This document shows positions 3,198 to 36,527 of a stretch of 64,000 nucleotides of DNA, one piece after another. The position numbers and the translations under genes are program-made. This DNA comes from Pseudisothecium myosuroides (taxonomy: Eukaryota; Streptophyta; Bryopsida; Hypnales; Lembophyllaceae). Positions within the stretch are counted from its first letter, which is position 1. Every line of letters starts with the position of its first letter. The notes under the pieces are model-generated. The model did not search any database. It was not told the DNA's origin and saw only the letters and a list, made by a program, of their open reading frames with translations. The stretch is from NCBI GenBank assembly GCA_951799445.1, contig OX637289.1, positions 9,391,321 to 9,455,320 of the forward strand, written 5' to 3'.

Positions 3198-3205
3198 CCC
3201 AAAGT
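3198..3205. repeat. Left target-site duplication CCCAAAGT
   Basis: The 8 bp immediately before the CAGGG terminus; an identical copy is at 36520-36527. Confidence 0.85.
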
Positions 3206-3224
3206 CAGGGTTGTCTTCCCTGAC
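3206..3224 (+). repeat. Left terminal inverted repeat of the giant hAT
   Basis: CAGGGTTGTCTT followed by two unmatched bases and CTGAC; the inverted partner is at 36501-36519. Confidence 0.82.
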
Positions 3225-3344
3225 CTGTCGACAACTCGACAAACACAACGTCACAGACAGACAAGAGCCCCTCCGTCTGTCTAGTAAAGTCAGATTTTAC
3301 CCTTGACTTTTTTTAAATTACCCTCCATTTACCTTATGCTAGTT

Positions 3345-3657
3345 GGACGCCATGTGGCGTCCACGTGGCACAGTGCAAGGGCGCATGCGGGTGAAATGGG
3401 ACTTTGGGTGGAGGGCGACTACGGGGGTAAGGCGACCGCGGATAGGGCGACTTCTCCTCAAGGGCGACTTCGGGTACAGGCTGGTCCAATTCGGACCAGA
3501 AGTCGCCCAAGTTGCCCCGCGGTCTCCCAGCAGCATCCGCACGCGCCCTGTACCCGCGGTCGCCAGCTCTCCCTGGGCGCGCCCTCCCGCACCCGCGGTC
3601 TCCGGACGACCTGCACGCGCCCCTTGGACCAGTGGTCGCCACCCGTGGTCGCTTTCC
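3345..3657 (+). promoter_or_regulatory. GC-rich motif cluster 1: left subterminal region and promoter of the first cargo gene
   Basis: The cluster opens with a short palindrome, GGACGCC-ATGT-GGCGTCC (3345-3362). About ten variants of ACCCGNNGTCGCCC follow in both orientations, for example GGGCGACTTCGGGT at 3462-3475, and later forms ending GGTCTCC and CACGCGCCC. A TATAAAT box at 3658-3664 closes the cluster. The position is 140-450 bp inside the element end and about 170 bp before the start codon at 3829, so it could serve both transposition and transcription. Confidence 0.65.
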
Positions 3658-3664
3658 TATAAAT
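3658..3664 (+). promoter_or_regulatory. Probable TATA box of the first WCHID-family gene
   Basis: TATAAAT in a GC-rich setting directly after motif cluster 1, about 165 bp upstream of ATG 3829. Confidence 0.55.
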
Positions 3665-3828
3665 CCGTCGCCCGTGTTCTTTTTTGGTACCTTCCTTCTT
3701 CACTTGGGCTATACGGCTTGTACCCATTCGTGGCTACATGCGATACCTTAAGTGAAGAAAAATAACTATTTTTATTATCTACGGTTGCGGTTTTGGATTT
3801 TGGTGAGCCTCACGGTGGACATTTACTC

Positions 3829-6313
3829 ATGGCTAGCACAGGAAACACCAATGGGTCAGTTCCCATTTCAGCTGCTGCTCGAAATGCCGGGGTAGTGAGA
3901 AAGGCTGCTCTAGACAAGAATCGGAAGCGCAGAGGTACTATACATCGAAAACGATTGCATGTGCTGAATAGTGCAAATCACCTTGCATTTAAAGGGTGGG
4001 ACGAGGAGCCCGAACCATGGACAATACAAACTTGCGAAGATTATATTGAATGGTGCCACATCGACAAGTTATTTCCAGCATGGCGGCATTATCAAAACCG
4101 GCATACAAACAAGGCAAACTTGAAGTACTGTGAAAGTCCAGCTTTCCTTCAGAGATGCTTCGAGTTGTAGCAAGTCCTTTACAAAACCGCCTTCGTGGAA
4201 AGAAATGAAGTGCCCCTCTTCCTTGCGAGAGGAGCATATGCTGAGGTGTCACTAAACAAAAAGGTTGATTGGAGCACGGTCAAGGAAAGTATGTACATTA
4301 CACGTCCAGAAAACGGTTCCATACCTAAAGGTGTTTTGACTTTTCCAGAGGGTGGATCTATTCGAAGTACTCCTAAGAATCAACCCCATGTTCAAATTGA
4401 GAGCGCGGAATCCGAAGAGGATGACAATTTGGATGGTACACGTCTTTCTAGGACAACACGAGTTGTTGAGGAGTTTTTAGCCCTCATCGACATTCAAAAT
4501 GGAAGTACCGAGGCAGGGGAAACCTCGCGAGGACGTCATGACAGACTAGCACCAAGGGTGCGACGTTCAATCAATCGAATTGGAACTGCATCGATCTCTA
4601 TGGCGGTTTCAAGACCAGCTGCACCACCACCACATGCGAGCAACGTCTTCGATTTTAGCCAAGACGAAGACATGGCGACGGAACGAACCGTCCACATTCT
4701 TCTTCCGCAATCTCGAGTACAATCAACTGACGACGTGATAACCTTGACAAAGGCCGTAGACCTCTTGAAGACGAAGGATGCCACCATAGCTTCTCTAGAA
4801 TCTGATGTGAGCAAACTGCGGTCCGAGTGTGAACACAAAAAGGTCCTCATTTCACAACAGTCTGTAGAACTACAGCGCCTCCGAGACAAAGAGCAGGAGA
4901 CTTTCAGTTTGTCGGATATGGATAACACCTTCATTGACCACGATCCACTGCAGCTGGAGAAGGTAGTAGGGGACTTGACCAGTGACATCCTTCACCGTTC
5001 TCCGCCTTCCAAGCGTATCAGGCGTGCTTCATTAATTCTAAGTGCGCTTCCTACTGCCACCATGATAGATACTACGAATGACACGACTGATCTCCATGGC
5101 ACCCAAGATTCACTCTCTTTTCCAGCAGTACTACATTCCACACCGTCAGATAAAGATAAGGAACTTCTTAAGGATAATGGATTGCTTAGAAAGCGTTTGG
5201 CTGAGCTGTTGGCAACATACTATCATTGGAAGGTCGCGTGCATTTTAACCGTGGACCGATCTCAACAAATCGCAATGGAATTGGATAAAGTTTTGAAGAA
5301 CTTTCATGCAAATGCCCCGAAACGAGAGAACAGGCTCACGTCGTGGGCGTTGGTGGAAGACATGTTTCCCAATGACATGCCCATGATGGCCGCGCCAACA
5401 GAAAATCTAATAGATTGGGCGCAAAACGGTTGGGACCACGGAAATCAAATGTCCTCCCACGACGACATCGAAGGGCGGACGTTGCTTTGGCTGAAGCCTG
5501 CTTCTTTTGTCTTGGACCAAACCATGTGTCCTATATGTCAAAACCAATTTGGACCTGAAGGCGGTTGGGCTCTTGGATCCTATGCCCATGTCTACCACCC
5601 TCAGTGCCTCATCACGTAATGTTTGATTAGACGACGTTGCGTTCTCTGCTCAGCACCATTCCATGATCGTCTGTATGCCATGTTCAATTTGATGACTTAC
5701 ATGCCACCTTCTTGGGAACACAGCGTTGACACAACGGCAGAGCGGAGCTTATGGGGTCGAGACTTGGTTTGGAGTTGGCGATCGGCCCAGCATGACCAAG
5801 AAAAGGGACAACCTAGCGCGCAGTTGAATTGGGAAACTGACCCGGCCAAAATTGTTCAAGTTGCACCAAGGCTGATGGGAAAAGGCCCACTAAACAAAGG
5901 AAGGAGGGCATTCTTCTTCCAATGCCTTGGTGGATATTTTTGATAAGAACTCCTCCACCTTCAAGTGGGGTCCTCATCCTGAAGGGCACCGTTGGAATTT
6001 CCAAGGGGAGAGGATGGCCAATAACGATGAAAATGCCTCGTTACAAGAATTGAATGATGCGCAGTACATGGACTCCACGTATGGACCTTATTACGTGAGT
6101 CAAGCACTAGACTATTTGTTGGAAGTACACTCTCCGCGGACAACAAGGACCCTCCAAGCTCTGAAAGACTCCAATGTCTTGGAATCCATTTTGAATGCGG
6201 ACGGACCAGCTTCACGAACTCGTGCCAGGAGGAAGCTTGGGGTTGGAGAGTCATCCAACTACGAACGTGGTGAAGGAAGTGGTACTCGAAACGACCCAAA
6301 TGTTATCGTCTAA
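3829..6313 (+). pseudogene. WCHIDKLFP-family cargo gene 1, with RING-like C-terminal zinc-binding region
   Basis: The ATG at 3829 sits in good context; the frame upstream of it has no ATG. A basic N-terminus (KNRKRRGTIHRKR) leads to the family motif WCHIDKLFPAWRH and the downstream VDWSTVKE. A long variable region follows, including a Leu/Lys/Glu coiled coil around 4740-4920. Next is a Cys/His-rich segment (CPIC at about 5526, HVYHPQC, then RRRCVLC and PFH after 5620) that resembles a RING-like finger, then an acidic tail. The frame is interrupted by TAG at 4168-4170 (Trp in one paralogue), by TAA at 5617-5619 inside the finger, and by a probable one-base insertion in the T run near 5937-5941, after which frame 2 is open to 6313. 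The function of the family is unknown. The coiled coil and zinc finger suggest protein-protein or ubiquitin-type roles, but that is inference. Confidence 0.65.
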
Positions 6314-7097
6314 GCATTTTCATTCTTCGGTTGCATTGACGTCGCTTCTCATAATAGTATAAATTATGATAGGCCCCCAGCATGTGGTCATAGCATATGA
6401 GCATATCCACCTATCCACGCTTGTTATGTCGAGCTTTATTTTGTAATTTTGTTTTATCTCGAAAAATAGTCTTCTAAAGCTTCAAATTGTAGTGATGTGC
6501 AGCAATTTTATATTGCTTTTATTTTGATTATATATTACAATACTTTTTTGTACCGGAATTTCAGTGTTTACCATCAATATTACTATACGTTGCTCACTCG
6601 CTATTTAAAAAATGAATTGTTCAAATCATCTGACCATTGATTTGAGGTTCACGTTGATTTTGCATTTCCTTCTGCATGAACGGATAAAGTACAGAAGGAA
6701 ACTTCTGGTGTAATCTACCAATGGTTATGTTACTTGAACTTCATATAAGAATGTGATACGATTCCAAATAAGTAAACCTCTAAAGGACCTTAGCCCTTCT
6801 TCCACCAAAATACACCAGGAATTGCCATTTCTAATTTTCTATTTCCAAAATTGAAAGTTCTCGAAAGCATTCTTTGTCAATGTCTCACCATGAGGATCAA
6901 ATACCCAAAAAGGCAAAAAAAAAAAGAACTGTGCAAGGGAATAAAATTTAGAATCCTAACCACAAAAATAGGTTAATATTTGCCAAATTGCCAATTACAA
7001 TCTCACCACTGGGATTAGTGATATCTTAATCCATCTTCGAGCTTCTAATATTTTCATTTTCTATTCATTATTGAAACGACTTCTCCTTCATAATTTT
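6314..7097. other. Spacer inside the giant element, nothing recognised
   Basis: AT-rich 3' flank of cargo gene 1; no gene or repeat identified. Confidence 0.45.
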
Positions 7098-8056
7098 GTA
7101 ACCCCTAAAGGACCGAGGCATTTTTTCTGCGAAAATCAAATGAAATCTACCAATTCAGTACCTAAGAGTATAAAATTATTTCAATAGATTTTTTTCAGGA
7201 TCTAACCATAGGCTCTAAGTCCTCTAACACCTAACTAGTATGCAAAAGTATGGAGAAAAATTTTAAAATTCTTGATCGCATGCATTGCAAGATATTTGCG
7301 TTTAAACTTGAAAGTAGAAAACATAAGTTCTTCAACACATTGCGGCGGTAGATTTCTTGACTTTGAACATTTTTGAATTAAAATATTTGGACTATAGATT
7401 TTGAACTTCAAATCTAGAATTCAATTTAGAGTGTTGAGAAAAAAAATTCCAGATAAATTTATTTTCAATCTTAAAGAAATTGTTAAATAGAAGTAAGGAC
7501 AAGATTACGGAAAAATCTAGAATCTTTTTATCTTTTAGGATGAATTGAAATGCACTGATTCTAATGATAAGATTGTTCTAACAAATAAAGTAAACCGTGC
7601 TAAATTTATTTGTTTGCAAAATTTTCGAAATTGCATTCAAAATTGAATAAATGAATCCTACAAGTCATTTTCTTCAAGAAAATGTTGTAAGCCTGTAACT
7701 GCCCCCCCCAAAAGGATGTCCATAACTTTCTCATAACAAATCCAAATGAAATGAATCAAAACTTTCCATATAGACAAAAACATAATCTATAAGAAAAGAA
7801 AAGAAAAAAGAAAAATGTTGGAAAAAATGTTGTTGCCCATTTGTCCCCCGTCCCCAATTGTGAGCTTGTTTGGTCATAACTCTTGTAAAAAAGCACCGAT
7901 TCTGGAAAAAATATATATTCCTGCAAAGCTTATTAGTTTTTCTATTTTAAAAAAACTTCTAAAAAATTATGACAAATTCGGCCCGTAGTAACTTGACCAA
8001 AATCCCATTTTGCCATTTGTTTCTCGAAGGGACAATGGTCCATTGGGGGAGGTTGT
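7098..8056 (-). mobile_element. TTAACCCC-family MITE, reverse orientation
   Basis: It begins GTAACCCCTAAAGGACCGAGGC and ends in the family's GGGACAATGGTCC subterminal region. The interior shows the shared TTGCAAGATATTTGCGTTTA and CACCTAACTAGTAT blocks. Non-coding and diverged; right edge approximate. Confidence 0.6.
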
Positions 8057-8185
8057 AATGAGTGAAAATTAAATGAATTTAAGTGAAAATTTCTTTTGTG
8101 CTCTTTGAAGTGAAGTCTTGACCATTAAAAATTAGAAATTCAAAATGGGTAGTGCAAATCATCAAAGCTGTGAATGTTCAAACTT

Positions 8186-9145
8186 TGAATACCTAAAAAG
8201 CCATTGTCCCTTCAGTGGACAAATAGGATTTACAACAGGTACATACGAGCTACAAATTTCTTTTGATTTTATGAACCTTCTTTTCCAAATACAAAAGTTG
8301 ATTAGCGTTGTGGAAATATAAAATTCGTTTCAATCTGTGGGCGAGAACAACAGTTATGCCCGAATAACCTCAAAACAGGGGAGAGGGGGCAGAAAACATA
8401 TTTGTTGCTAAATTTTTTATGGATCTAGTTTTCCTCTAAAATATTTTTTTTTTCATTTCTAAAGCTCAAATTCGTTTCATTTAGATTTGTCATGAGAATG
8501 TTTTGGTCTTTCGAACAATTTTGTTTTTTCCAGGCAATTAGAATTTAGAGCATGCACTTGAAAAAAAAAAGTAGTAGGATTCATTTCTAAATGCAATTTT
8601 TGCATTTAAATAAAAAAGGGGCCATACAATTTAAGGTGCTTGCTAAAAGAATGTCACCATTGGTATCAGTGCATTTTAATTCCATCTAAAAGATTATAAT
8701 ATTTTAGATTTTCCTTCTCGCTCTGTCGCTCATATCTAATTACCTACTTCTAATAAACACATTTTTGAATAATGAAAAACAAGTTTCCGGGAATTTTTGG
8801 GGGGTATAATAAACTCAGTTCTTCATTATAAAGATTTAAAGCCCTCCCACTTTGTACTGTAGGCAATTTAAGTTTAAAATGATCAAAGTTAGGAAATCAA
8901 GCCCTGCGCCTCCGCAATGTGCTAAAAAAATTCATTTTTTGCACTTCACACGTAGATGTGTTGCAATTTTTGTGGTTTTAGATTCTGTATTCTATCGACG
9001 CATTTTCATACTAGTTAGGTATAAGATCCTAGGGTTCGATGTGGAAAAAATAAATATTAAATTTCTTTAATTTTGCGTTGAATTTGACAAATGGCACTTT
9101 GAAGTTATTGTTTACACTAGAAAGACCTTTTCTTGCAAGGGATTT
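8186..9145 (+). mobile_element. Degenerate TTAACCCC-family MITE
   Basis: It starts CCTAAAAAGCCATTGTCCC and carries the family's GGACAAAT, CGAGCTACAAATTT, TTAGATTTGTCATGAGAA and TAGTTAGGTATAAGATCC blocks. The right terminus is too diverged to place exactly. Confidence 0.5.
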
Positions 9146-10097
9146 AGAATCTATTCAAACAGGGTGCATAAAATCAGATTTCATCACTTCAAATGCTAAT
9201 ATCTTGCAATGCATTGGATAGAAGTTTGGAAATGTTACATTGTTACCCACACGTTTTATTACTAGTCTTCTGGAAAATCCTACTGTCAAGTATACACAAC
9301 AACCCTTTGGTAAACTTTTGTACTTTCTGAAAGAGAAATGGTAGTTGGATAAAATTTCAGAATTTAAATCAACATGGTGGAGAATAGAATCTACAGTATT
9401 AGAGGGAACAAATTGGAAAGATAGAAAATTTCATTCTTTTTAAAATTGTTAAGTACATATTGAGACAAGATAGAAGACAAAAAATCATATTCCCGTAGAA
9501 CTATAGGGTTCTTCCATTTTTAATTAAGTATTATTTAATTAAGTATTACCAAAAGCATGACAAAATTTAAGACTCTACATACCTGTCCGGATTTCCATTT
9601 GGGGGTCCGCATTCCTATGACAGTGGACAGTGGACCATTTTGTTAAAAAACCCTCAAAGCATGCTTTTCCAAAAAATAACATTGAAATTCTATTGTGCAT
9701 GCCATTTCTACAATTTTGGTGAATATATTCTTGATAGGTGAATCCCTGAAGTCACTAAGGCTCCAAACCATTCAAAAATCACAATTGGCATTGCTTTCCC
9801 CCTTTTGACCAAAAAATTTAGAATTTCTGTGTTTGGCATATTTAATTGTAGGATCTATCTAGGCACTAGTACATAAATGTCTCAAAGACAATTTATGAAC
9901 TTTAAATGTGTGATCTTTGCATTTCCTATGGAAAAAAATTAAATATAGAATGAACCTTGGTCGATTACATTTACAGGCTTCTAATCATTTGCCGGTTGTA
10001 GAATTTCCACTGTGGACAACAAACTTCTATTTCTTCAAGTTCAAGAATTGGATTTATAGTCTATAATTATTATTTCTTTGTCAATTTCAAGTGCCTA
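9146..10097. other. AT-rich spacer with fragments of MITE-like sequence
   Basis: Short blocks such as CTAATATCTTGCAATGCATTGGA recall the TTAACCCC family. No gene seen. Confidence 0.4.
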
Positions 10098-11024
10098 TTA
10101 ACCCCTAAAGAACCGTTGTCCCTTCGGGGAACAAATGCATTTTTGGGCAGGTACCTACGAGGAGAAATTTTGTCGTGATTTCTTGGAAAAAAAATTGATA
10201 AGTTCTGTGGGAATGTCACTTTTTTCAAAATCGGTGCCCGCGAACAAAATTTATGACCAAATAGTTTAATAAAGGGGCCGGCGGCCGGCAGGAGCCCGGG
10301 CAGCAAAATATAAGTAGACAAAAATTTGAAATTTTCTTTTTTATATTTTTTGGCTCACAGGATATATTTTTGTCTACCTTAAAAAGTTTGATTCATTTCA
10401 TTTGGATTTGTAATGACAAAGTTATGGACATTCTTGTTTTTTGGGCAGTTAGAGCATCTTCTTGAAAAAAATTACTTGTATGATTCATTTTTGAATGCAA
10501 TTATTGCAATTTAAAAGAAAAAAATTTACATGGTCTGATTTATTTGCTAGAACAATCTCACCATTGAGATTAGTGCATTTTAATTCCATTTAAAATATAT
10601 TAATATTTTAGATTTCCCCTCTATCTCGTACCCACTTCTATTTAGCAATTTTCTTAAGAATGATAATTAAGTTTTTTTGAATTTTTCTTTTTTCCTAGAC
10701 TCTCATCTCAATTCTCCACTATAAAGATTTAAAGCTCAAAACTTTGTAGTGAAAAAATTCTGAGTTAAAAATGTTCAAAGTAAAAAGATGTAGTCCCGCA
10801 ATGTGTTGAAAAACTTGTTTTTTTCACTTTAAACGTTGATATCTTGCAATTTGTGCCGTCAAAAATTCTGAATTTTTTTCCACACTTGTTTATACTAGTT
10901 AGGTGTAAGATCCTACGGTTAGATTTGAAAAAAAAACAATTTTCAATTTTTTTGACTCTTTGCTATAGATATGGCAGTTTTGAGTGTTTTCGGCAAAAAA
11001 AGGCTTTTGTCCTTTAGGGGTTAA
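10098..11024 (+). mobile_element. TTAACCCC-family MITE, full length
   Basis: Left end TTAACCCCTAAAGAACCG, right end GTCCTTTAGGGGTTAA; 927 bp. The left subterminal region contains the stem TTGTCCC-TTCGG-GGAACAA. No coding capacity. If the outer TTA is the target duplication, the 3-bp TTA/TAA preference points to the PIF/Harbinger type; that assignment is inference. Confidence 0.8.
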
Positions 11025-11593: not shown

Positions 11594-13066
11594 CTAGGTT
11601 GTTTTTTTGCGTGGGAGGAAGTCACTCCACATAGGCTCCGGGCCTATTTCCTCTAATTCTGGACCGCTCTTTCCTACGGTATCGTTATACCACCTGTACC
11701 ACTTGAAACGATAATCATTCTCGGCCTTTAGATCAAGAAGCTCATTGGCCAATAAATGTACTCTCTGGTCACGCAACTGTACGCACTTTTGAAGCATTGC
11801 TAATTCCTCAGGATTACAACCATACTCGAAGGCTGCAGCCTCAGCATCCACCTTCGGGATGTTATGGATGGCGGCATCAAAATATTCTTTTTCTTTCTCT
11901 TTTATTTCAAGATTTAAGCTTTGTTTCTTGTTCTCTGCTTGACGGCGTCTGTGTTGAAGGGTTTCTAGTTTAGATTGCCATAAAAGGTAGATGTCCACTG
12001 TGAACTCTTTTCCACTTTCAAGTTCTTTCACATACAAATCTCGATTTCTCTTCAATTCAACAAAATCCTTCTCATTTTGTTCAACGATGTTCACCAAAGC
12101 CTTCACTCGTTGCTTCAACACATCCACGGCGGTCGGATTCGCTTCACATTGCTTTAAATTCTTCAATTGCTCACTCTTGGCACGCAGAGCAAACCTTGTA
12201 CTATCAATTTTTGCAATCAACAAAGTTCTATCATCTTCTGAATCGCTTTCACTACCACTTTGCAGTTGCTCTTGCAAAGAGGGGTTTGCTTGTACAGCCT
12301 GGGCCACATCTTCCATGACTTCATCAGAGCAAGGGGGAACTACGATGGGATCTTCGACCCTTTTCCTCTTCTGGTGAACTCCCAAGTCGCCCTTGTCTAG
12401 TTCTTTCATGACGACATCTTCATCGTCACTATGGAAAGAGTAGCCATCGTACTCATGTGTGTGCTCATCTGAGCTAGAAGTAGCTGACCACTGTACCAAA
12501 TCATTCGGAACGAATGACTTTCCACGCTTCACGGAGGTCAACATCTTTGTCAAATCAGTTGGTTCGTCTCCCGCCAAAATTGATACGTTCTGTGGATGCA
12601 CTCCAATGGGGACCTCCTTTAGTGTTGTCCAATCCACCTTCTTCTTCAACATAAGTTCAGCATACACCATTTTCACAAGATAGAAACAGAAATTATCGTT
12701 TCGGTAAGTTTCAGACTCCAAGTACAATTGCTGCCATACCTCGCAGCATCTAATCATGAAGTCTTGGTCCTTGGCGTGTGCAAGATTTGCTTTGTTCTGC
12801 TTCACGTGTTGCTTATGACGACACAGAGGAAATAACTTGTCAATGTGGCACCAATCCACATATTTTTGAACCATTTTGTAACTCCAAGGTTCAGGTTCAA
12901 TTCTTCAACCCTTGAAAGCCTTAATCTTAGGGTTGAGCAAGATGGGCACATGCTTCTTGTGGTTCTTTCCTTTCCGTTTTCAAAGCTTGTCGCGAATGGC
13001 CTTCTTCTCTAAGGCAGTGAGTGGCTCACTTTTGGAAGGGGGCGATGGTTCGAGCTCGTTCTCCAT
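11594..13066 (-). pseudogene. WCHIDKLFP-family cargo gene 2, coiled-coil protein
   Basis: The minus-strand frame opens at ATG 13066-13064 (MENELEPSPPSKSEPL) and runs to TAG at 11594. It carries two in-frame stops, TGA at 12982-12980 and TGA at 12907-12905. Alignment with paralogue 1 (DKNRKR, FKGWDEEPEPW) puts an Arg and a Trp at these points. From 12874 onward 426 codons are uninterrupted. They show YVDWCHIDKLFPLCRHKQH, then MVYAELMLKKKVDWTTLKE, an acidic region, and long coiled coils (about codons 215-345 of that stretch), ending in a Trp/Tyr-rich block (FKWYRWYND). Paralogues 1 and 3 share only the N-terminal domain; the coiled-coil and C-terminal parts diverge. Translation could still start at 12874 just before the family motif, so partial function is possible. 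Confidence 0.68.
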
Positions 13067-13363: not shown

Positions 13364-13672
13364 CATCGCGCAGAGGGGACGACTAACGACCGCCAGTCCA
13401 GGAGACTCCTGAAGTACCCGAAGTTGCTATGGGACGAGTGCGGGTCCCGCCCAGCCAAAGTCGCCCGATTGGTACCCGCCTGATTGATACCCGCCTGATT
13501 GATACCCGAGGTCGCTGGGGCGAGTGCGGGTCGGGAGGTACCCGCGGTCTCCACTGACACCCGCATTCTCGAGGGCCAGGTCGACCGTGGGTCTACGGAT
13601 CAGGTGCGGCAAGTGCAGGAATGGGTTGAACGCGGGTCCGGGAGCTACGACGGCGACCTCGGGTCCAACAGA
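13364..13672 (-). promoter_or_regulatory. GC-rich motif cluster 2, promoter of cargo gene 2
   Basis: It contains variants of ACCCGNNGTCGCCC in both orientations, for example GGGACGAGTGCGGGT at 13431-13445, and a small tandem of ATTGATACCCGCCTG (13480-13507). Read on the minus strand, it is followed by GGGTACTTCAGG and by a leader with CTGCGCGATGACTGTCACCC. That leader is shared with cargo gene 3, and the segment lies about 300 bp before the start codon. Confidence 0.62.
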
Positions 13673-13748: not shown

Positions 13749-14157
13749 GAGGAGGTAGGAAGCTTTAAAATCGACCATCTAAGGGCTGATCCTCCTTTTT
13801 TTATGTATTTTCTTGGATGAGAATAGTTTTAATTCCTTTTTCAGACAAAGAGGAATAGATGAGAAAAGATTGATACGTTGGCTTTGTATTTTTCCAAGCT
13901 TTTTTGAATCATTTGTGAATTTTCAAAGAAGTTGGGTCGTAGGTCCATATTTCTGACCCTAGGATTGTTCACAATCAATTCTAAAGAGAGGTACGGAAAC
14001 CAAAGAGAACGACTGGCTCTAGCAATTTTACAGTGTTTTTTTCCTTCATCCTCTTAAGGACTATAGAGGTCAATTTTAGAACCACCCCATGTCAATTTCA
14101 CAACTATTTATAGGGGCGGTGCTAAATGCCCTAACAGAGTTTGAGCCTCCTACTTTA
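13749..14157 (-). mobile_element. TAAGGTAGGAGGC-family MITE, diverged copy
   Basis: Termini resemble GAGGTAGGAAGC on the left and GAGCCTCCTACTTTAAT on the right. The interior matches, in reverse complement, the copy at 23975-24339, including TGGTTCTAAAATTGACCTCT and the CTATAAATAGTTG block. It lies directly upstream of motif cluster 2. Confidence 0.55.
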
Positions 14158-14519: not shown

Positions 14520-15578
14520 TTCTAAATTTTGACCGGACAAATTGCAAGATATCTGCATTTGAAGTGGAAAAAAAAACTTTTCCAACACATTGCGGGACTA
14601 GTTTTTTGATTTTGAAGATTTTTAACTTATATGTTATCTATTATAGGCCTATAGGACTTTGAACTTTAAATCTTAATAGTGAAGAACTCATTTGAGCCGA
14701 CTTGAGCGTCTAGAGAAAGAATATATTCAAGAAAACTTAATTTTAATTCTCCAAAAAAATGTCAAGTACAAGTAGGTATGAGATAGAAGGAAAATCTAAA
14801 ATATTAAAATCTGAAATATAGAATTAAAATGCACTAATACCAATGGTGACATTGCTCTAGCAAGCAAAACAAAATGTAGGCTTTTCTAGTCCTTCCAAAA
14901 GGTGAAGTTTTATCTTTCAACATCTTAGGAAAAAAACAGGTATGTCCTATTACTTGTGCACTTTAGACAATCTGTCAGAAAATGGGTTGAAAACATATAT
15001 AAAAAAATTATACCAAATTTTTTTTTATATTCACTTGTAAATAACTTGTAAGGTTGAAGGTATTACTGAATGAAAGATAAAACTAATATGCTATTAATTT
15101 TTGGAAGAATTTGAAAATTGTTAATTTCAACGGTGAGAATATTCTAATAGAAAATTAATATCTTTTATTTTCATTTTCATTTCAAAATTTCAAAATCAAG
15201 AGCAAAAGATGACTTCGAATGTTTTTTCTACCTTCTAAAACCGCAAAATAAAACTCCTCATAACTCTTACCTCATTATTTGAAATTGAATGGTTCAATTT
15301 TTTGGAGGTAGGGATCAATCTACAGAATTCCAAATAAATATTTTTTATCTTTAAAAAAATAAAATTTTGCTGCCCTGTTTGACATTGAAATGGAAAAAAA
15401 ACCCTTTAACTTTTGCATTACTTATTGGAATGACACGAAACAAAGCTTCACATGTACATTATGATGAGTAGCATCCGTCCTAAAAGTTTCATGTAAAAAT
15501 TCCAAATTATAAAGTGAATAGAGCCTGCCCGAGTTCTCAAAAAGCTAAAAGTAGGCTCCTGGGTACTTTAGGGGTTAA
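14520..15578. mobile_element. TTAACCCC-family element, composite or diverged
   Basis: The left part carries the shared GCAAGATATCTGCATTTGAAG block; the right end is GGGTACTTTAGGGGTTAA (15578). The right two thirds (from about 14880) match the copy at 54365-55066, defining a second sequence subfamily. Left boundary uncertain. Confidence 0.5.
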
Positions 15579-18690: not shown

Positions 18691-18705
18691 TCTGGTACTG
18701 GAGGG

Positions 18706-20427: not shown

Positions 20428-21371
20428 TTAACCCCTAAAGGCCCAAGGCATTTTTTCTGCCAAAAAACCATCAAAACTGCCATTTCTATAGCAAGGAGTA
20501 AAAAAAAATGAAAAATGTTTTTTTTGCACATCTAACCATAGGATCTTACACCTAACTATTATAAGAATGTGTGGAAAAAATTTCAGAATTTTTGACCGCT
20601 TAGATTGCAAGATATCTGCGTTTAAAGTGGAAAAAACAAGTATTTCAGCACATTGCAAGACTAGATTTTTTTACTTTAAACATTTTTCACTTAAATTTTT
20701 TGCACTACAGAGTTTTGTGCTTGAAATCTTTATAGTGGAAAATTGAGCTGAGAGTCTAGGGGAAAAAAAAAATATTCAAAAAAACTTAATTATCATTCCT
20801 AAAAAAATTATTAAGTAGAAGTAGGTACAAGATAGAAGGAAAATCTAAAATATTAATATCTCTTAGATGGAATTAAAATATACTAATCCCAATGGTGAGA
20901 TTGTTCTAGCAAGTACACTAAACCATGAGAATTTTTTTTTTTTTTAAATTGCAAAAATAGCATTTAGAAATGATTCCTACAAGTTATTTTTTTCAAGAAG
21001 ATGCTCTAACTGCCCGAAAAACAAGAATGTCCATAACTTCCTCATAACAAATCCAAATGAAATGAATCAAAGCTTTCCAGATAGACAAAAATATAATCTA
21101 CAAGAAAAAAAATATTAAAAAAAAAAAATCAAAATTTTGCCAAATTTTTCTTGCTGACCAGACTGCCCAGTTACAAAAAAAAAGTAACATATTTGGCCAT
21201 AACTTTTGATTCCTATTTCCAAATGTCTTGAAATTTAGTGCATATGAAAGATATTCCTTGCGCCCACCTTTTATTAAAATTTCAGCTTAAAATATGGAAG
21301 TCTCTAGTCACACGGACCTGCCCAAAATTTCTATACGGCCAAAAAACGCATGCCGGTCCTTTAAGGGTTAA
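20428..21371. mobile_element. TTAACCCC-family MITE, mosaic of subfamilies I and II
   Basis: Left end TTAACCCCTAAAGGCCCAAG with subfamily I interior (CACCTAACTATTATAAGAAT). The right quarter is subfamily II, ending AACGCATGCCGGTCC then TTTAAGGGTTAA. 944 bp, non-coding. Confidence 0.75.
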
Positions 21372-22290: not shown

Positions 22291-22309
22291 AAGTCTTCCA
22301 CCCGAGGCC

Positions 22310-22995
22310 GCCTCGGACCCGCAGTCGCCCTTGATCGCCCACCCGAAGTCGCCCTGTGACCCAAAGTCGCCCCTAGAAAGAACAATTGTCGCCACTTTTT
22401 TGTGGCACTTCGTGCACCAGCGTTCGACAAGGACCTGCACTCGCCCTGTGACCTGAAGTCGCCCTTTGAAAGAGCAATTGTCGCCACTTTTTTGGGCACT
22501 TTGTGCACCAGCGTTCGACAAGGACCCGCACTCGCCCTGTGACCCGAAGTCGCCCCTAGAAAGAGCAATTGTGGATACCTTTTTGGGCAATTCCTGCACC
22601 AGCGTTCGACAAAGGACCCACACTCGCCCTGTGACCCGAAGTCGCCCCTTGAAAGAGCAATTGTGGACACCTTTTTGGACACTTTGTGCACCAGCGTTCG
22701 ACAAGGACCCGCACTCGCCCTGTGACCTGAAGTCGCCCCTTGAAAGAGCAATTGTGGACACCTTTTTGGGCACTTCCTGCACCAGCGTTCGACAAGGACC
22801 CGCACTCGCCCTGTGACCCGAAGTCGCCCCTTGAAAGAGCAATTGTGGACACCTTTTTGGACACTTCCTGCACCAGCGTTCGACAAGGACCCGCACTCGC
22901 CCTGTGACCCGAAGTCGCCCTCACCGAGGAACGAATTGTGGGCACATTCTGTGCCACTTTCTGCAGCAGCGGTCGACAAGGACCCGCACCCGCCC
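22310..22995 (+). repeat. Seven-unit 91-bp tandem array built from the element's GC motif (cluster 4)
   Basis: The anchor CACCAGCGTTCGAC recurs at 22415, 22506, 22597, 22689, 22780 and 22871, with a variant at 22964: steps of 91-93 bp. Each unit has a pair of motif variants (ACCCGCACTCGCCC and ACCCGAAGTCGCCC) plus a less GC-rich spacer, GAAAGAGCAATTGTGGACAC. The long minus-strand frames here are products of the repeat (91 is not a multiple of 3, so the frame rotates) and are not counted as genes. No gene follows directly downstream, unlike the other internal clusters. Confidence 0.8.
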
Positions 22996-23220: not shown

Positions 23221-23240
23221 AAAACCATAACCTTTAAACA

Positions 23241-23974: not shown

Positions 23975-24339
23975 TAAGGTAGGAGGCTGGAGCTGTATTA
24001 AGGCGTTTTTAACCGCTGCTATAAATAGTTGCAACACGGACATGGAGTGGTTCTAAAATTGACCTCTATAGTCCTTGAAAGAATTGAAGGAAAAAAGTAT
24101 TATTAATTAAAAGAGCCAATCATTCTCTTTGTTTTCTCCATCATTCTTTAGAATTGCAAGTGAAGAGTTCATGGAAAACTTGGGGTCTTAAATGCTTTGA
24201 AAAACACAGAAGCACTTGTGTTACATTCGTCATGTATTTCTCTTTGTCTGAAACATTAGTTACAAATATTTTCATCCAAGGAAATACGTGAAAAAGGAGG
24301 ACCAGCCCTTACAAGTCAATTTATGAGCCTCCTACCTTA
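23975..24339 (+). mobile_element. TAAGGTAGGAGGC-family MITE
   Basis: Inverted termini TAAGGTAGGAGGC and GCCTCCTACCTTA; 365 bp. The interior has CTATAAATAGTTGC and TGGTTCTAAAATTGACC, shared with the diverged copy at 13749-14157. It lies just upstream of motif cluster 5. Confidence 0.75.
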
Positions 24340-24431: not shown

Positions 24432-24832
24432 CTGACCCGTAGTCGCCCACATCCGCAGTCGCCCCAGACCCGCGGTCTCCGTTGCCCGCGCTGGACGTCA
24501 CCCAACTTGCACACGCCCTCGAACCCGCAGTCGCCCCAGACCCGCGGTCTCCGTTGCCCGCGCTGGACGTCACCCGACTTGCACGCGCCCTCGGACCCGC
24601 AGTCGCCCCAGACCCGCGGTCTCCGTTGCCCGCGCTGGACACACCCGACTTGCACGCGCCCTCGAACCCGCGGTCGCCCAGGACCTATGCACGCGCCCTT
24701 TGGCGACCTCGGGTTGTTGCTGATCGGAGGTCATCGCCCCGACGTGCACGCGCCCCGAGAACCTCGAGTCAGTGTCAGACCCGCGGTCTCCATCACCCGC
24801 ACTTGCCCCAGGGCGACCTCGCGTACTTAAGA
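24432..24832 (+). promoter_or_regulatory. GC-rich motif cluster 5, promoter of cargo gene 3 of the WCHID family
   Basis: It contains three 72-bp tandem units (CCGCAGTCGCCCCAGACCCG at 24453, 24525 and 24597), followed by single motifs such as ACCCGCGGTCGCCC at 24666-24679. The cluster ends GGGCGACCTCGCGTACTTAAG, aligning with the TATA-like GGGTATTTAAG of the kinase promoter. The leader shares CATGCGTGCCCGTG (close to TGCGTGCCCGTG in the kinase leader). ATG follows at 25037. Confidence 0.65.
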
Positions 24833-25036: not shown

Positions 25037-26578
25037 ATGGATCCGAGCTTGAAGAAGAAAAAACCAAAAGGAGATCGCCACCATAGGCGGCGTCTCGTCC
25101 TTATAGACCCAATGGTGGTGGCATTCCGAGGTTGGCGTAGCATCCAAGCAGATTGGACCTTGACAACTTGCAAGGCATTTGTGGGATGGTGCCATATCGA
25201 CAAGTTGTTCCCTTACCATCGGCACAAGCGCCATTTGAACCAGAACTATGCAAATCTACATTATTGCAGAGATGACGCATTCATGCAATGATGTATCGAG
25301 GTGTATAGATTTTTATATGGAGCACAGAAAATTCCGCGAAGTGAAGTTGGGTTGAACATATGCCAAATGGTGTACGCAGAAGTACAGTTGAATCGGACGG
25401 TGGATTGGAGGACCATAAAGGCATCGAAGAAAATCTCCATTCCAACAACCAGAGACATCCCGAGGGCGGGCCCTTCTATTAATCCACGGCAGGGGCTAGG
25501 GCCAAAGAAGAATATCAAAGACCTAGTGGCTGATGTAAACTATCAGTGGTCAGATTCATCTAATGCAGACAACTCGGATGATGAGGTTGGTCCCGACCCT
25601 GTGGACACGATGGAAGACCCACCAGTGGAAGGAAATTTATCACTAGTAGTACCGGAAGAAGGGGCCATGGGAGGTGCCCTAGCGATTTACGTGGAACCAC
25701 TCGTAGCAGTTGGACCAGTGCAAGGCACGCAAGCAAATTTGGACAAAGTACCTCAGGATGTGCATGTACAGATGCATGAAAATGTGGAGGATAGATTTGA
25801 GGGTGAGATTATAACGCAACAAAGGATTGTGCCTTCTTTGCTACAAGAACGTGATGTTGTAATTCCGGAAAACAGTATTCGGCGAACAAAAAAGTCTTAT
25901 AAAGAGGTGCTGAAGAAGCTTCTATAAGACTTAGAAGAAGAACAACAAGAGTGTGAGATTTGGCAAGACCGGATGGCGGAGGATGTTGAGGGTGACGATG
26001 TCCACACTCTTGAAGCACTAATTCAAAGCGGGCAAATTCATTTGTCGGTCCAGCAAAAGGAGATGGAAGAGTTGGAAGAATTTTACCTTAAATTCAAGAA
26101 GGGACAAGATGGAGGGTCAAGCTCAAATGCCAACCCACTAGTGGAGGAACGTCTTCACAAAATTATGGAAGACTGCAGAATGGAAGAGAATCGAGGAATC
26201 GAAGAAAGGAAAAGTGTGGAGGAGGCACAATTAAGGTTGAATCACTTCAAAGAAATGAAGGATCATGCAACCGTTGACCGAGCTTTGCATTTGAATGCGG
26301 CATACAGGGATGTGCAACATCAAATATCTGCATTAGAGGTAGCTGACTTGAAAAAGAAGTTAGCTTCTTTGAAGAGATTGGAAGCAAAGTATGAGGAAAG
26401 CATATCACAAGAGAAGCAAAAGATCAATATACGGAAATTGCACAAGAAAGTATGGCTCCGGAATAAATTGTGGACCTATGGCCGCTACCATGAGAATCAA
26501 GCGGAGGAGTACAGAGTGGCTGAAGCCGAGTTAGCAAAGAAGAAAAGAGAAAAAGAGGGCCACATGGATGTTGCATGA
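25037..26578 (+). pseudogene. WCHIDKLFP-family cargo gene 3, coiled-coil protein
   Basis: ATG 25037 begins a basic N-terminus (DPSLKKKKPKGDRHHRRR). The family domain follows: FRGW, VGWCHIDKLFPYHRHKRH, then MVYAEVQLNRTVDWRTIKA. An acidic linker leads to an extended coiled coil (about 25925-26560). The same frame runs for 514 codons with two stops, TGA at 25289-25291 (Arg in both paralogues) and TAA at 25925-25927 (context KKLL-stop-DLEEEQQE suggests Gln). As in the other two copies, the N-terminal 130 residues are the conserved part. No enzymatic motif is visible. Confidence 0.67.
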
Positions 26579-27956
26579 TTTCAGGGACTACAATTTTTTG
26601 TAGAGGTGTATATGTGGTTCTCTGAACATATGTGTATGAAAAGTTTTTTTCTACATTTTAAACTTTCCAATGCAATTACTGTGAATTCTATGTTGCTTGT
26701 ATATGAATGAAAATCTAAATTCTTATAAACACCATCATTGGATTCATTGTCATGTTTGGAAGTCGTGATGATTTGCAAATTCTATTGACTTGAGAATTAA
26801 GAGTTTTGGAGCCATTTTTTGTAGGATGGACGGTACTCACCATAATGTGGATAGAAGCTTTGTTTATGTCATTCCTATGAGTATTGCATAAATTAGCAGT
26901 GTTTTTCTAATTATTTTGTTCACGAGAAGGTCACTTAGTGCGCATATTAGAAACTATGTGAGATCTAATATAGAGTACTATTTATTCCTTGTATCTAAAA
27001 TTTTAAAAATCATTATATCTAATATAGAGTGTGTAAAATTACATGTACGGTATTATAACTATTATAGGATTATGTTTAATATCATGTATTATATTTGATG
27101 TAGTTCAAATATAGGGGGGCAATAATAAGTGTAAAAAATAATTTTGTAAAGTGGGTATTTGATGTCCTTAAAGAAGAGATGTATGAAAAATGACACATTA
27201 TTTGTCTCAAATTATCCATGAACCTTGTTAGAGCAACTCTAGTTGTTTGAAGAATTATCTGTAAAGTTTTTTGAAGTCACTTAGAATTTAAATTTTGCTT
27301 TATTATACTCTTATTTGTTCACTCCAATTTGTAGATGATTAGCAGTAAGTTATTTGATACAATTAGAGTCCATTGTTTATTATGGTGTACGAATGTATGT
27401 GTTTGGCCATAGTACATTTTTCCAAATATATTGTACTAGTCGTTTAAGTACCATAAAAAAATAGTTTGAAAGAGAAGGGACATAGGAGAAAGAAGCAAGG
27501 ATAAAAAAAAATAATAGAACCAAAAATCATACAACACCTAATAAATTTAAATCTTAAATCTAATATAGGGGCCAAAATATTGGACTCAAAAGTGTATTAT
27601 AAATAATATAGGGTGCTATAATAAATGGCAATTTATAATTAATTTTAATAATAGGGTATATTAAATTATTAAATTTTAGAAAAAATAGCCCCCCATAAAA
27701 TATCCCTCGATCTCACGTATATACTAAACTTCTAAACTAGTGACCTTTCAGAGATTGTGTTCAGAGAGGCGATAGAAATGAAGTTAATGAAGAAATAAAT
27801 CATAATTTGTTTGGAATTGTGTAGAGTAATACGTCTTTTCCAAAAGATGAATCATTTAATTTCAAATAATGAGTTACCAATTCAAAGTAGTTGAATTCTG
27901 CAGGCATTTAAGGTAGAAGAAAAATGTAAAGTAGCTAGGTGCGTTCAATTTTTAGA
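26579..27956. other. AT-rich spacer, nothing recognised
   Basis: 3' flank of the gene ending at 26578; no gene or clear repeat. Confidence 0.4.
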
Positions 27957-28792
27957 ATTGACCCCTAAAAGACCAAACAACATTTTGTGGCAGTATAGCA
28001 ATCTTGAGGCGCTCCCTAATAATGAAATTATCATATTTCTTTGAAATTTTCAAAGAACATGCGGCCAAGGAAGAGCTTAAATGCACAACAATTTTTAAAA
28101 CTTTTGACTATATGAATAAAAAGGTGTTCTCATGATATATAACTTTCATTGGTTAGTGGGCAACTCAAAGACTGAAAGAGTTATTTTTTTTTTTTTTTCC
28201 TAAGAAATAAAAATTGAAATTGGTTTCCTCGATTTCTAGATACATGGAAAGTTTAGGATCATACCATTTTGATTAATGAGATGAAATTTAAATTTTCTAG
28301 GTTGTCATCGACTTTCTATTAAAAAATAAACTTTGAAGTCCTTTATTTGGCTTGATTTCAATATTTTGGAAGAAAAATGAAACCACTAGGTGTAGATTGT
28401 TTATTACAAGTTTACAACATTATAACCATCGGAATTGTCATTTTCCAATATCAAAACTGAATTTAGAACAATTCAGTGTTTTGAATCATTGGCTACTTCT
28501 TCCTCTTTATTATTTTATTCCTACATGTTGTACAATTCCAGAGATCTAATTTTTTTTTCAAGAATGTAGCGAACTTGCTTTGAAAAATGAATCCATACCT
28601 AAACCACTTTTTTTCATATAAATGTGAGCTTGTAAATTGCAGCTGCCTGCTTTTCCGGAAGGCCATGAAGAGGGGTTCTGTGAATTCACCCGCTATTATC
28701 TTGCAAGGTATAGTATTGGATTGTAATCTTACAACCGGCCTATTTGAACCATTCACATTTTTCTATGCAATGTGCAATATAAATTTTTTTTG
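27957..28792 (-). mobile_element. TTAACCCC-family element, subfamily II, reverse, degenerate
   Basis: It starts TTGACCCCTAAAAGACC. The interior (GTGAGCTTGTAAATTGCAGC, TTATCTTGCAAGG) matches the reversed copy at 51981-52862. It appears interrupted or truncated by the foldback at 28793. Confidence 0.5.
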
Positions 28793-29492
28793 GCTTGCAT
28801 AATTTTCACTCCATTATTATCCAATCCCAATGAAGCATACAAAATTTCAGTTTCAAAATTGCAAAATTGGATTTTTGGTAAGTTTTTGAAGTCAATTTTT
28901 GTACTTTAACAAAATGTTTTATTGAAAACAATTGATGGTGACTTTTCTTAATTTGATTGCATGGATACATAGGGAACATCCGTACGCACATCTTTCATAT
29001 TAAAGAACACCCCCTTAAGTAACAAAAATATAATCTATTAAAAATTCAATATGAGGTGCCATATGCCCTAACTTTGTGAAATAGATATCTTTGTATTTTA
29101 ACTAGATTTTGGCAAGTAATTATACCATCATGTTGAAATGTACAAAATTAGTTATAGTGTGAGAGTGAAATGCCAAAATGTAGTTAAAATATAGAGATAT
29201 CCATTTCTTCAAAGTTTGGTCATACAACATTTTTCATTGAACTCTTCGTTGATCATGATTTTGTTACGTAAGGGGGTGTTTTTTAATATGAAAAGTGTGC
29301 GTATGGATATTTCCTACGTATCCATGCAATTAAATTAAGAGAAGTCACCATCAATTGTTTTCAATAAAATATAATGTTAAAGTACAAAAATTGACTTCAA
29401 AAACCCACCCAAAATCCAATTTTGCATTTTTGACACTGAAATTTCGTATGCTTCATTGGGATTGGGTAATAATTGAGTGAAAATTATGCAAG
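28793..29492. mobile_element. Foldback element, about 0.7 kb
   Basis: The arms 28793-29024 and 29267-29492 are near-perfect inverted copies, from GCTTGCATAATTTTCACTC at the outer edge to GAACACCCCCTTA at the inner edge. The roughly 240-bp centre has its own weaker inverted repeat (GATATCTTTGTATTTTAACTA against TAGTTAAAATATAGAGATATC). Non-coding; transcripts could form a long hairpin. Confidence 0.78.
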
Positions 29493-29611
29493 CTTAAAAA
29501 AAGCCTATTTCATTCTATATTATGTACAAATCTTTGAATGGATAAAAAATGCAGTTTGTCCGCTTTCAGTCCCAAGAGTATACATTAAAAAATCTGAACC
29601 CGTGTCCATAT

Positions 29612-30075: not shown

Positions 30076-30270
30076 GACCCGCAGTCGCCCTCTTCGTACC
30101 CGAGGTCGCCCTTGCTGGACCGCCAGTCGCCTTCCCTGACCCGAAGTCACCCCATTACTGACCCGAAATCGCCCCATTCGACATGCTCCCGCGAGCGGCC
30201 TGTGTAAGACTGTTGGTGTTTTGAGGTCACCTGCAGTGAGCCGCAGTCGCTGATTGGGCGACCTCTGGTG
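30076..30270 (+). promoter_or_regulatory. GC-rich motif cluster 6, transposase promoter
   Basis: The motif begins at once: ACCCGCAGTCGCCC at 30077-30090. ACCCGAGGTCGCCC and ACCCGAAGTCACCCC follow, ending GGGCGACCTCTGG. A TATAAA at 30285-30290 follows and the ORF starts at 30519. It has the same arrangement of cluster, TATA and gene as the cargo genes. Confidence 0.65.
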
Positions 30271-34241: not shown

Positions 34242-35174
34242 TTAACCCCTAAAGTCCCAAGGCCATTTTTCCATCAAAAACCACTCAAAACTGTCATTTC
34301 TATAGCAAAGAGCAAAAAAAAAATTTTAATGTGTTTTTTGCATATTTAACCGTAGGATCTTGTACTAGACTAGTATGAGAATGTGTGGAAGAAATTTCAA
34401 AAACTTTGACCACGTTGATTGCAAGATATTTGCATTTAAAGTAAAGGAATCAAGTTTTTTTGCACCTTGCTCAACTACATTTTTGGCTTTGAACCTTCTT
34501 AACTTAAAAATTTTGCTCTAATGATTTTGAATTTCTAATTTTATATGATGAAGAATTGAGTTGAGAATCTAGGAAAAAAAATTCAAAAAAGAAACACTTA
34601 ATTTTCACTCATTAAAAAATTATTAAGTAGAAGTAGGTTCAAGATTGAAGGAAAAATTAAATCATTAATAGCTCTAAGATAGAGTTGAAATATACTAATC
34701 TCAACGGTGAGATTGTTCTAGAAAGAAATCTTAACCTTGTGAAACTTTTTTGTTTTTTAAATTGTCAAAATTGAGTTCAGAAATGAATCCTACAAGTTAT
34801 TTTTTCAAGAAGATGCTCTAATTGCCCGAAAAATAAGAGTGTCTATAACTTTTGCATAACAAATCGAAATAGAATGAACCAAAAGCTTCCCATGTAGATA
34901 AAAATAAAATCTATATGAAACAATTTTTTTTAATTTTTAATTTCAAGTTTTTGTGAGTTTTTTTTTCTGCCCGCCGAACTAAAATTTGGGGGTTTTGTGC
35001 CATAACTTCTGCTCCCGGGCACCGATTGAAATAAAAATTACATTTTTGGAAAGCTAATGTGATTCTCTATCTTCACAAAAAAAATTCAGAAAATTACGAC
35101 AAAGATTGAGACTGTAGGAGCCTGCCCGAAATCCATTTTGTCCCCCGAGGGGACAACGGGACTTTAGGGATTAA
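34242..35174 (-). mobile_element. TTAACCCC-family MITE, subfamily I, reverse
   Basis: It starts TTAACCCCTAAAGTCCC and ends CGGGACTTTAGGGATTAA; 933 bp. The stem TTGTCCC-CCGA-GGGGACAA lies near the right end. Related to the partial copy at 63549. Confidence 0.78.
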
Positions 35175-35839
35175 GAGGACTCTACTTGTGGCTTTTTGTA
35201 TTTGGAATACTTGGAACTTAGAAAAAGAGCCTTTAACTTTTTCAAATATTGTATTTTGGACTATTGGAAAAAAATAGCAGTGCCAAATTCCACAATAATA
35301 TAAAGATTGGTATTATGGCTAGAGAAAAAAAGCAAAGAAAGGAATTAAAGGATTGAAGAAGGTCATTTGTAACTACTTTATGAAATGATGGTCAGTTACC
35401 AAGTAAAGCACCAAAATAATTATTTGCATTCTTTGAAATGGAAATTCTTCTAAACTCACTTTTTGGACTTGTATACAACACTTTATTATTTTTTTTTAGA
35501 AATCCTCTTAAGAATAGCTAAAAGTGAACCACTTCTTCCAAACTTCATTTCCAAATTTATTTCTTTGAATAATGCTATGTATCCTAAAGTCCTAAACCCC
35601 ATAATTGGAATTCGGAAAGTCTGACATTACATCTAGGGCTCATTTTACAAAGTGAAACCATCTTTAAAAATAAATAAAAATTCTCTTCATTGTCCAGCCT
35701 TAGGGCATGGCTGCTTTGTGTTTTTCTTTTAAAGCAGTGGGGTTACCGTTTGTTTAAAATATTATATATATAATATATACACATATATATATACATATAT
35801 ATACATATATATTTCAAAGATATTAAGCGAGGACAACAA
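35175..35839. other. AT-rich spacer with a TA/ATAC microsatellite
   Basis: TATATA and ACATATAT runs at about 35760-35812; otherwise nothing recognised. Confidence 0.5.
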
Positions 35840-36155
35840 TAAGGTAGGAGGTTCTTTAAATCGCCCACGCTACTCAAATGTACACTGCTCGTACATGTCG
35901 CTTTTTCATAGCCTTCACTAGTGTTCAAATAGTGTACATTTTAGGGAGTGGGCGAATTTAGAGCCTTATGCCACTTAAACTTCAAATTCTCACAAGTAAT
36001 TCCAAAAAGCTCCAAAAAATATGAAACGACTTGGGTTACATGTCAATTCTTCTTGTTTTTCAAAGAAAATTTACTGAAAAATATTTTGAGATGTTTCACC
36101 TCCCCAATATTCAATTTCAGCTCTTAAATTAGCGATTTCTAGACCTCCTACCTTA
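35840..36155. mobile_element. TAAGGTAGGAGG-family MITE
   Basis: Inverted termini TAAGGTAGGAGG (35840) and CCTCCTACCTTA (36155); 316 bp. The interior has GTGTTCAAATAGTGTAC and AAACGACTTGGGTTAC. It abuts motif cluster 7. Confidence 0.72.
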
Positions 36156-36157
36156 GT

Positions 36158-36322
36158 TCAGTGGTCGCCTCTAAACCCGCAGTCACCCCAGACCTAGGAC
36201 CCGTAGTTGCCCACGGATTTGGTACCCGCAGTCGCCCAGTGTTTTTTACCCGCGGTCGCCCTCATTTTAAAAGCCGCAGTCGCCCAGGCAGCACCCGCAC
36301 GCGCCCTGACCCGAAGTCGCCT
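36158..36322 (-). repeat. GC-rich motif cluster 7, right subterminal region
   Basis: Motif copies include ACCCGCAGTCGCCC, ACCCGCGGTCGCCC and ACCCGAAGTCGCC (36309-36321). Read from the right end inward, the order (TIR, spacer with GCCATGTCCACGT, motif cluster) mirrors the left end at 3206-3657. No gene is driven by it; a MITE at 35840-36155 occupies the downstream position. Confidence 0.65.
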
Positions 36323-36500
36323 TTCATGACGTGGACATGGCAGTCTTGGGAGCCAGCCACGTAAGACAGTTTTTTTACCGAGGGGTAAAAAAACCAAAAC
36401 CCTAAAACCTTATTCGACGACTTTGTCGCCCACACTTGACATTTGTCATACACGACATCGGACGTCAGACGAACAACACGACGACCAAACCCCAAAACGT

Positions 36501-36519
36501 GTCAGACAAGACAACCCTG
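36501..36519 (-). repeat. Right terminal inverted repeat of the giant hAT
   Basis: Reads GTCAG-NN-AAGACAACCCTG on the plus strand, matching the left terminus at 17 of 19 positions. Confidence 0.82.
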
Positions 36520-36527
36520 CCCAAAGT
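36520..36527. repeat. Right target-site duplication CCCAAAGT
   Basis: The 8 bp immediately after the CCCTG terminus; an identical copy is at 3198-3205. Confidence 0.85.

Follow-up and report, generated by a model that had tools for sequence, protein, structure and literature searches.

Features of the locus

We analysed a 64-kb window of the genome of Pseudisothecium myosuroides (Bryopsida, Hypnales; assembly GCA_951799445.1, contig OX637289.1, positions 9,391,321 to 9,455,320 of the forward strand; coordinates below are those of the window), in which an earlier note made from the DNA alone, here called the original prediction, had proposed a cargo-carrying hAT transposon of 33.3 kb. The block from 3206 to 36519 contains a transposase gene (T), a protein kinase gene (K), three paralogous genes (A, B, and C), and a short motif that is repeated near both ends and upstream of each gene (Table 1). 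Several lines of evidence argue strongly that this block is one element, a single DNA transposon of the hAT superfamily. (Papers are cited by PMC number.) First, the terminus pattern CAGGGTTGTCTTNNCTGAC is found at 3206-3224 on the + strand and at 36501-36519 on the - strand, without mismatch at its 17 specified bases; its two N positions differ between the ends, so that 17 of 19 bases are common to both. These are the only matches in the window at up to three mismatches, and dinucleotide shuffles gave 0.07 matches on average at this threshold, with two or more in one shuffle of 100. Second, the 8-bp sequence CCCAAAGT stands, identical, immediately outside both termini. It has four copies on the + strand and three on the - strand of the window, and two 8-mers agreed at 20 of 400,000 random pairs of flank positions, i.e. 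about 1 in 20,000. Third, the tip CAGGGTTG, present at both ends, agrees with the consensus [T/C]AGNGNNG derived from 153 plant hAT termini (PMC6027215). Fourth, the transposase within is of the hAT type. The element would have been inserted by cut-and-paste, leaving the 8-bp duplication behind.

The product of T has two domains that score above the Pfam cut-offs (PF04937, E 3.8e-32; PF05699, E 2.1e-08), and both are retained in the 715-residue product that ends at the premature stop at 32664. RNase H-like motifs start at residues 254 (CSDGW), 315 (CTDNA), and 636 (SCERNWS), and we take these to hold the catalytic residues. Transposase domains other than hAT were not called in the open reading frames (ORFs) scanned. 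The protein database holds at least 48 relatives of T, the nearest among the matches listed being 68-69% identical. Four of the 48 carry an organism label, and three of these come from Actinidia rufa (28% identical), Ceratopteris richardii (29%), and Chara braunii (23%). The fourth, P0013, is 64% identical and belongs to a metagenome-assembled genome of Bacilli; it is probably eukaryotic contamination of a bacterial bin. The other relatives come from the sources ena, jgi, lgn, and ncbi without an organism label, and are taken here to be mostly metagenomic or unassembled-read data. Viral and prokaryotic collections, which are a weak test, gave 10 pattern matches (viral_contigs) and 19 matched stretches (genome_contigs) to an alignment of 16 transposases and 29 stretches (viral_contigs) to an alignment of gene B, none of which was confirmed, and no match of the transposase in plasmids. 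The terminus pattern also occurs in seven viral contigs, which we attribute to chance.

Gene K encodes a protein with a kinase domain (PF00069, E 1.4e-12) and has 43 relatives in the protein database, the nearest 61% identical. Across the 29 of these that were aligned, the Lys, HND, Asp-x-Gly, and APE positions either do not vary or reach at least 90% conservation, and because these catalytic positions are kept, the family has been maintained as a working kinase. HND replaces the usual HRD in the aligned relatives, and DWG mostly replaces DFG, which makes them a distinctive kinase group. A model of the family (29 sequences, P0060 first; pLDDT, the predicted local distance difference test, 81.9) has a kinase fold: the 50 PDB matches listed are protein kinases or their complexes, one of them titled only 'phosphotransferase', and the 50 listed matches to viral structures are mostly kinases, some being unnamed or otherwise named.

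Genes A, B, and C share their N-terminal ~150 residues, with identities of 42% between A and B, 36% between B and C, and 43% between A and C (E 3.5e-30 or better, computed without composition correction). Past this domain they diverge, and A is longer. The RING-like cluster at the C-terminus of A is a weak match (E 0.18); the tail of B is predicted to be charged and helical, and that of C is probably similar. Stops at 4168 and 5617 interrupt gene A, as does a frame change near 5.9 kb, which looks like a frameshift, a short intron being less likely. There are 10 relatives of B in the protein database, the best-scoring one 56% identical over 99%. The model of the B family (11 sequences, P0049 first) is poor, with a mean pLDDT of 59, and its looser PDB matches mostly span the coiled coil at residues 275-417. 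Gene models for all five were built on ORFs, relatives, and shared frames.

Much of the original prediction thus stands. The inverted termini that it placed at 3206 and 36519 match at 17 of 19 bases and nowhere else in the window, the identical 8-bp flanks lie at both exact junctions, and a hAT transposase, a kinase, and a three-member novel gene family (A, B, and C) were all confirmed inside the element. Its estimate that the 8-bp match would arise by chance about once in 65,000 was somewhat optimistic in view of the resampled flanks.

Table 1. Coordinates of the element, its genes, motif clusters, and nested sequences (MITE, miniature inverted-repeat transposable element).
Feature	Coordinates	Strand	Basis
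Left target-site duplication CCCAAAGT	3198..3205		direct read
Left terminal inverted repeat	3206..3224	+	pattern search
Left-end motif cluster, also upstream of gene A; 13 matches in both orientations	3379..3654		motif search
Gene A; N-terminal domain in common with B and C, long middle part, C-terminal Cys/His cluster of RING-like type (weak)	3829..6313	+	ORFs, alignment
TTAA-bounded piggyBac-like MITE sequence, joined from 6775-9488 and 9741-11024, with a complete copy at 10098-11024	6775..11024		repeat comparison
Gene B; shared N-terminal domain and predicted coiled coil, 490 codons interrupted by two premature stops	11594..13066	-	relatives, model
Motif cluster upstream of gene B; 9 matches	13416..13664		motif search
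Second MITE-like inverted-repeat element, AAGGTAGGAGGCT ends	13752..14156		repeat comparison
piggyBac-like MITE sequence, incomplete	14524..15578		repeat comparison
Gene K; protein kinase, ~210-residue N-terminal region, 528 codons, two premature stops	16802..18388	-	Pfam, relatives
Motif cluster upstream of kinase K; 8 matches	18533..18696		motif search
piggyBac-like MITE	19061..20005		repeat comparison
piggyBac-like MITE	20428..21371		repeat comparison
Motif array; 17 matches, 91-bp unit, 7.2 copies	22300..22995	+	tandem-repeat and motif search
Second MITE-like element, full copy	23976..24338		repeat comparison
Motif cluster upstream of gene C; 12 matches, 72-bp tandem unit	24435..24824		tandem-repeat and motif search
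Gene C; N-terminal domain in common with A and B, 513 codons interrupted by two premature stops	25037..26578	+	alignment
piggyBac-like MITE sequence	27848..28706		repeat comparison
Foldback element, 719 bp, single occurrence; 293-bp arms 86% complementary	28784..29502		inverted-repeat search
Motif cluster upstream of transposase T; 7 matches	30077..30269		motif search
Gene T; hAT transposase (DUF659 + Dimer_Tnp_hAT), 1090 codons	30519..33791	+	Pfam, relatives
piggyBac-like MITE	34242..35174		repeat comparison
Probable further copy of the second MITE-like element; 1 and 2 mismatches in its ends, inner similarity over 83 bp	35841..36154		repeat comparison
Motif cluster, right end; 7 matches	36175..36322	+	motif search
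Right terminal inverted repeat	36501..36519	-	pattern search
Right target-site duplication CCCAAAGT	36520..36527		direct read

A motif common to the ends and the genes

The motif that recurs through the block is 14 bp long, ACCCGMRGTCGCCC, its sixth position being C or A and its seventh A or G. At up to three mismatches the window has 74 matches, all 74 of them within 3206-36519 and none in the 30.7 kb of flanks, the GC-rich part at 38-42 kb included. Apart from one match at 12379, which has three mismatches and lies within gene B, the other 73 fall into seven clusters. Those at the ends are set back from them, by about 170-450 bp on the left and about 200-345 bp on the right, and the clusters associated with genes have their centres 312 bp (A), 474 bp (B), 226 bp (K), 408 bp (C), and 346 bp (T) upstream of the respective starts; no cluster is found less than 2.4 kb downstream of any gene end. 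When seven clusters were placed randomly in the non-coding DNA of the element, all five genes had one within 600 bp, a threshold picked after the data had been seen, in 3.7e-5 of 300,000 trials.

The original prediction had also announced several tandem arrays, and these are present, with units of 91 bp and 72 bp; the long ones are all upstream of C. The array at 22300-22995 lies about 2-2.7 kb upstream of this gene, with a repeat and a MITE between it and the cluster of C, and may be either an expanded part of the control region of C or the relic of a lost gene. Five AAACCCT units, which we take to be the plant-type telomere unit, occur within the element at 23186-23223.

Nested elements, size, and decay

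A large part of the element consists of nested sequences. The main family is that of the piggyBac-like MITEs, of about 0.6-0.95 kb, bounded by TTAACCCCTAAAGG and its complement, which together with their fragments make up about 26% of the window. They also lie outside the element, at 42793-43400, 46649-47583, 50947-51860, 51981-52862, and 53115-53701, and their density is equal on both sides of its boundaries (8734 of 33,314 bp inside vs 8130 of 30,686 bp outside). The second inverted-repeat element has three end pairs in the window, all inside the hAT element and two of them full copies by similarity, and unpaired matches to its AAGGTAGGAGGCT-like ends are found outside at 1034 and 57042. Nested MITE-like and foldback sequence amounts to about 10.5 of the 33.3 kb, and the native size of the element is probably about 23 kb, which is three times the longest of 276 surveyed plant hAT sequences (7144 bp). 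The predicted 33.3 kb is thus the true distance between the ends, inflated by the nested insertions, which would have lengthened the element from about 23 to 33 kb.

The present copy is decayed and unlikely to be autonomous. Premature stops interrupt all five genes, nine in total (two each in A, B, K, and C, and one in T); seven could be aligned to relatives and two had no aligned relatives. Five of the seven fit a single change of the C-to-T type, in one case in only two of six relatives (the others being gapped or different); the sixth fits such a change in two of seven relatives, and for the seventh, located in K, no such change fits. This pattern is mostly what would be expected of methylated, decaying DNA, and together with the frame change in A it makes decay the simplest reading. 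An alternative genetic code was dropped as an explanation of the in-frame stops, since TAA, TAG, and TGA all occur. Among the database proteins, T, K, and B each have relatives whose reading frames are intact. The nine stops represent about 3% of 322 susceptible sites, whereas seven MITE copies that were compared are 65-85% identical, i.e. 15-35% different over their aligned parts; given these values, the MITEs may have entered while the ancestors of the element were still mobile.

Elsewhere in the window, an ORF with a GATA zinc finger (40120-40941) lies 3.6 kb to the right of the element, and its C-terminus resembles what we take to be the LLM motif of class-B plant GATA factors. This ORF and the AAACCCT units are both in keeping with a land plant, but none of the relatives labelled with a plant name is close. 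Searches of the window with Rfam, at gathering thresholds, and with a tRNA scan returned nothing.

Are the extra genes those of the element?

We think it rather likely that the sequence between 3206 and 36519 is one decayed member of a lineage of giant, multi-gene hAT elements whose own gene set consists of T, K, and the paralogues A, B, and C. The extra genes would then be probable core genes of the element, and this is where we depart from the original prediction: the single hAT element of several genes stands, and the genes that it had called cargo look native rather than like passengers.

An unlikely alternative is that an ordinary hAT element, with T and the ends as its core, became swollen, A, B, C, and K being host genes that were caught between the ends or inserted later. 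This would suit the short length of plant hAT consensus elements, the longest of 276 being 7144 bp (PMC6027215), and an interior with much foreign MITE sequence at the same density as in the flanks. Three observations count against it, and because of them A, B, C, and K seem to be the element's own. First, all four extra genes stand behind a motif that is confined, in the window, to the element. Second, the protein database has 43 relatives of K and 10 of B, all in records without organism label, and no host counterpart is known among them. Third, K appears to be linked to T and to B elsewhere. A relative of T (P0016) and one of K (P0081), both from ENA, have the same longest contig of 15,563 bp, and a relative of B (P0051) and one of K (P0062) have the same longest contig of 6460 bp. 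In simulations, T and K shared a contig size of at least 10 kb with a probability of 0.00075, and K and B one of at least 5 kb with a probability of 0.0026, these cut-offs having been chosen once the matches were seen.

It seems improbable that the block is instead a composite, or macrotransposon, in which gene-bearing hAT-type elements were inserted next to or within one another and the motif clusters are their old subterminal regions. Every gene does have its own cluster, positioned as the left-end cluster is relative to gene A, but the internal termini that such a history should leave are absent: besides the outer ends, no sequence inside matches the 12-bp tip with fewer than three mismatches. 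At exactly three mismatches there are 19 matches inside, and outside there are 31 at two or three. Unrelated DNA might also lie between two hAT ends paired by chance, or have been enclosed by an assembly join. This would be in keeping with an element known from one assembled copy, but it is very improbable, given that the 8-bp duplication is exact at both junctions (a match that chance would give about once in 20,000), that the inverted ends have no mismatch at the specified bases, and that the motif is confined to the block in the window and present near both of its ends.

Several points weigh against a giant hAT lineage with its own gene set. 1) The element is known from one copy in one assembled 64-kb window, and the exclusivity of the motif to the element holds for that window only. 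2) The array at 22300-22995 has no gene directly behind it, and binding of the motif by any protein is something that we infer. 3) Outside relatives are known for B, the sole member of the A, B, and C family for which the protein database was searched, and the model of the B family, a poor one, had no PDB match at E <=0.001. 4) The linkage of K to T and to B is a hint, as it rests on equal contig sizes and not on contig sequences; P0051 comes from jgi and P0062 from ncbi and ena, the chance of a match at any size is 0.11 for K and B and 0.20 for T and K, and no equal-contig match between T and B occurs among the database relatives. There is also a third coincidence of size, between P0056 and P0067 (2045 bp), which must be due to chance because both genes cannot fit in 2045 bp.

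Comparison with other mobile elements

hAT elements are usually regarded as small, one-gene transposons. Like Ac/Ds, Tol2, and Hermes, the element described here has an 8-bp duplication, CAGGG-type ends, a DUF659/Dimer_Tnp_hAT transposase, and repeated motifs near its ends. It differs from them in its size of about 33 kb (about 23 kb without MITEs), in its five genes, and in having the motif before internal genes as well. Tol1 and Tol2 are 4.4-4.7 kb long (PMC10175614), the longest of the 276 sequences in the plant hAT survey has 7144 bp, and that survey reports no hAT in Physcomitrella (PMC6027215). In Hermes, the transposase binds the subterminal repeats through its zinc-finger BED domains (PMC10368747).

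The placing of the motif recalls a second group of elements, the VANDALs of Arabidopsis, in which VANC binds short motifs and causes loss of DNA methylation; these motifs are described as tandem repeats in introns, in intergenic or terminal non-coding regions, and upstream of VANA (PMC5735166). Both systems have an element motif repeated in non-coding DNA upstream of genes, here of all five. They differ in that the VANDALs encode the VANA, VANB, and VANC proteins, and in that the long tandem arrays here are upstream of C only. The motif layout, as we analyse it, resembles both the subterminal repeats of hAT elements and the motif repeats of VANDALs. VANDALs are MuDR-type elements, and no MuDR-type VANA transposase domain was called in the ORFs scanned.

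By analogy, we propose as a hypothesis that the motif belongs to a system of self-regulation or anti-silencing. The clusters would be putative binding sites of a protein of the element, either the zinc-finger-like N-terminus of T or one of A, B, and C. Clusters at the ends would help to build the transpososome, and those at the promoters would switch the whole gene set together or prevent its silencing, as VANC does for VANDAL, and K would have the transposase, or host factors of chromatin or repair, as its substrates. We hold only tentatively, and do not yet favour, the fuller reading in which this is an undescribed lineage of giant hAT elements with a co-regulated T, a conserved K, the A, B, and C family, and one motif, i.e. 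a hAT counterpart of VANC anti-silencing with phosphorylation added, its relatives probably residing in plants.

Giant DNA transposons with extra genes are already known from algae and fungi. The giant KDZ, EnSpm, and Sola-1 elements of algae are generally longer than 10 kb and reach about 30 kb, and those of Ectocarpus have extra genes, a frequently broken transposase, and nested insertions that are generally fixed among copies (PMC12477816). Our element shares with them its large size, extra genes, nested foreign transposons, and broken transposase, and differs from them in its hAT transposase, conserved kinase, paralogous A, B, and C genes, and shared promoter motif. The original prediction had compared the element with the Starships of fungi, and the comparison holds in idea, both being giant DNA elements with several extra genes. 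A DUF3435 tyrosine recombinase as the first gene is the defining feature of Starships (PMC12506042), whereas the first gene here is A, which has no DUF3435 Pfam domain. Neither the scanned ORFs of the window (12 of the 35 listed) nor the five genes read through their stops had a tyrosine recombinase called in them. The 14-kb ToxhAT, or ToxTA, of fungi is likewise named as a hAT element carrying a passenger gene, but it has a TA duplication, and its authors now place it with Tc1/Mariner (PMC12506042). In a literature search of mostly open-access papers, no giant multi-gene hAT element was found, and the word hAT does not occur in the main text of a review of giant eukaryotic transposons (PMC6431247).

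If true, a giant multi-gene hAT element whose kinase is conserved and whose genes have a promoter motif in common would widen the known capacity of cut-and-paste transposition. It would also open a way to test directly whether escape from silencing by means of sequence-specific proteins, made by the transposon and binding to motif arrays of its own, is found in DNA transposons besides the VANDALs.

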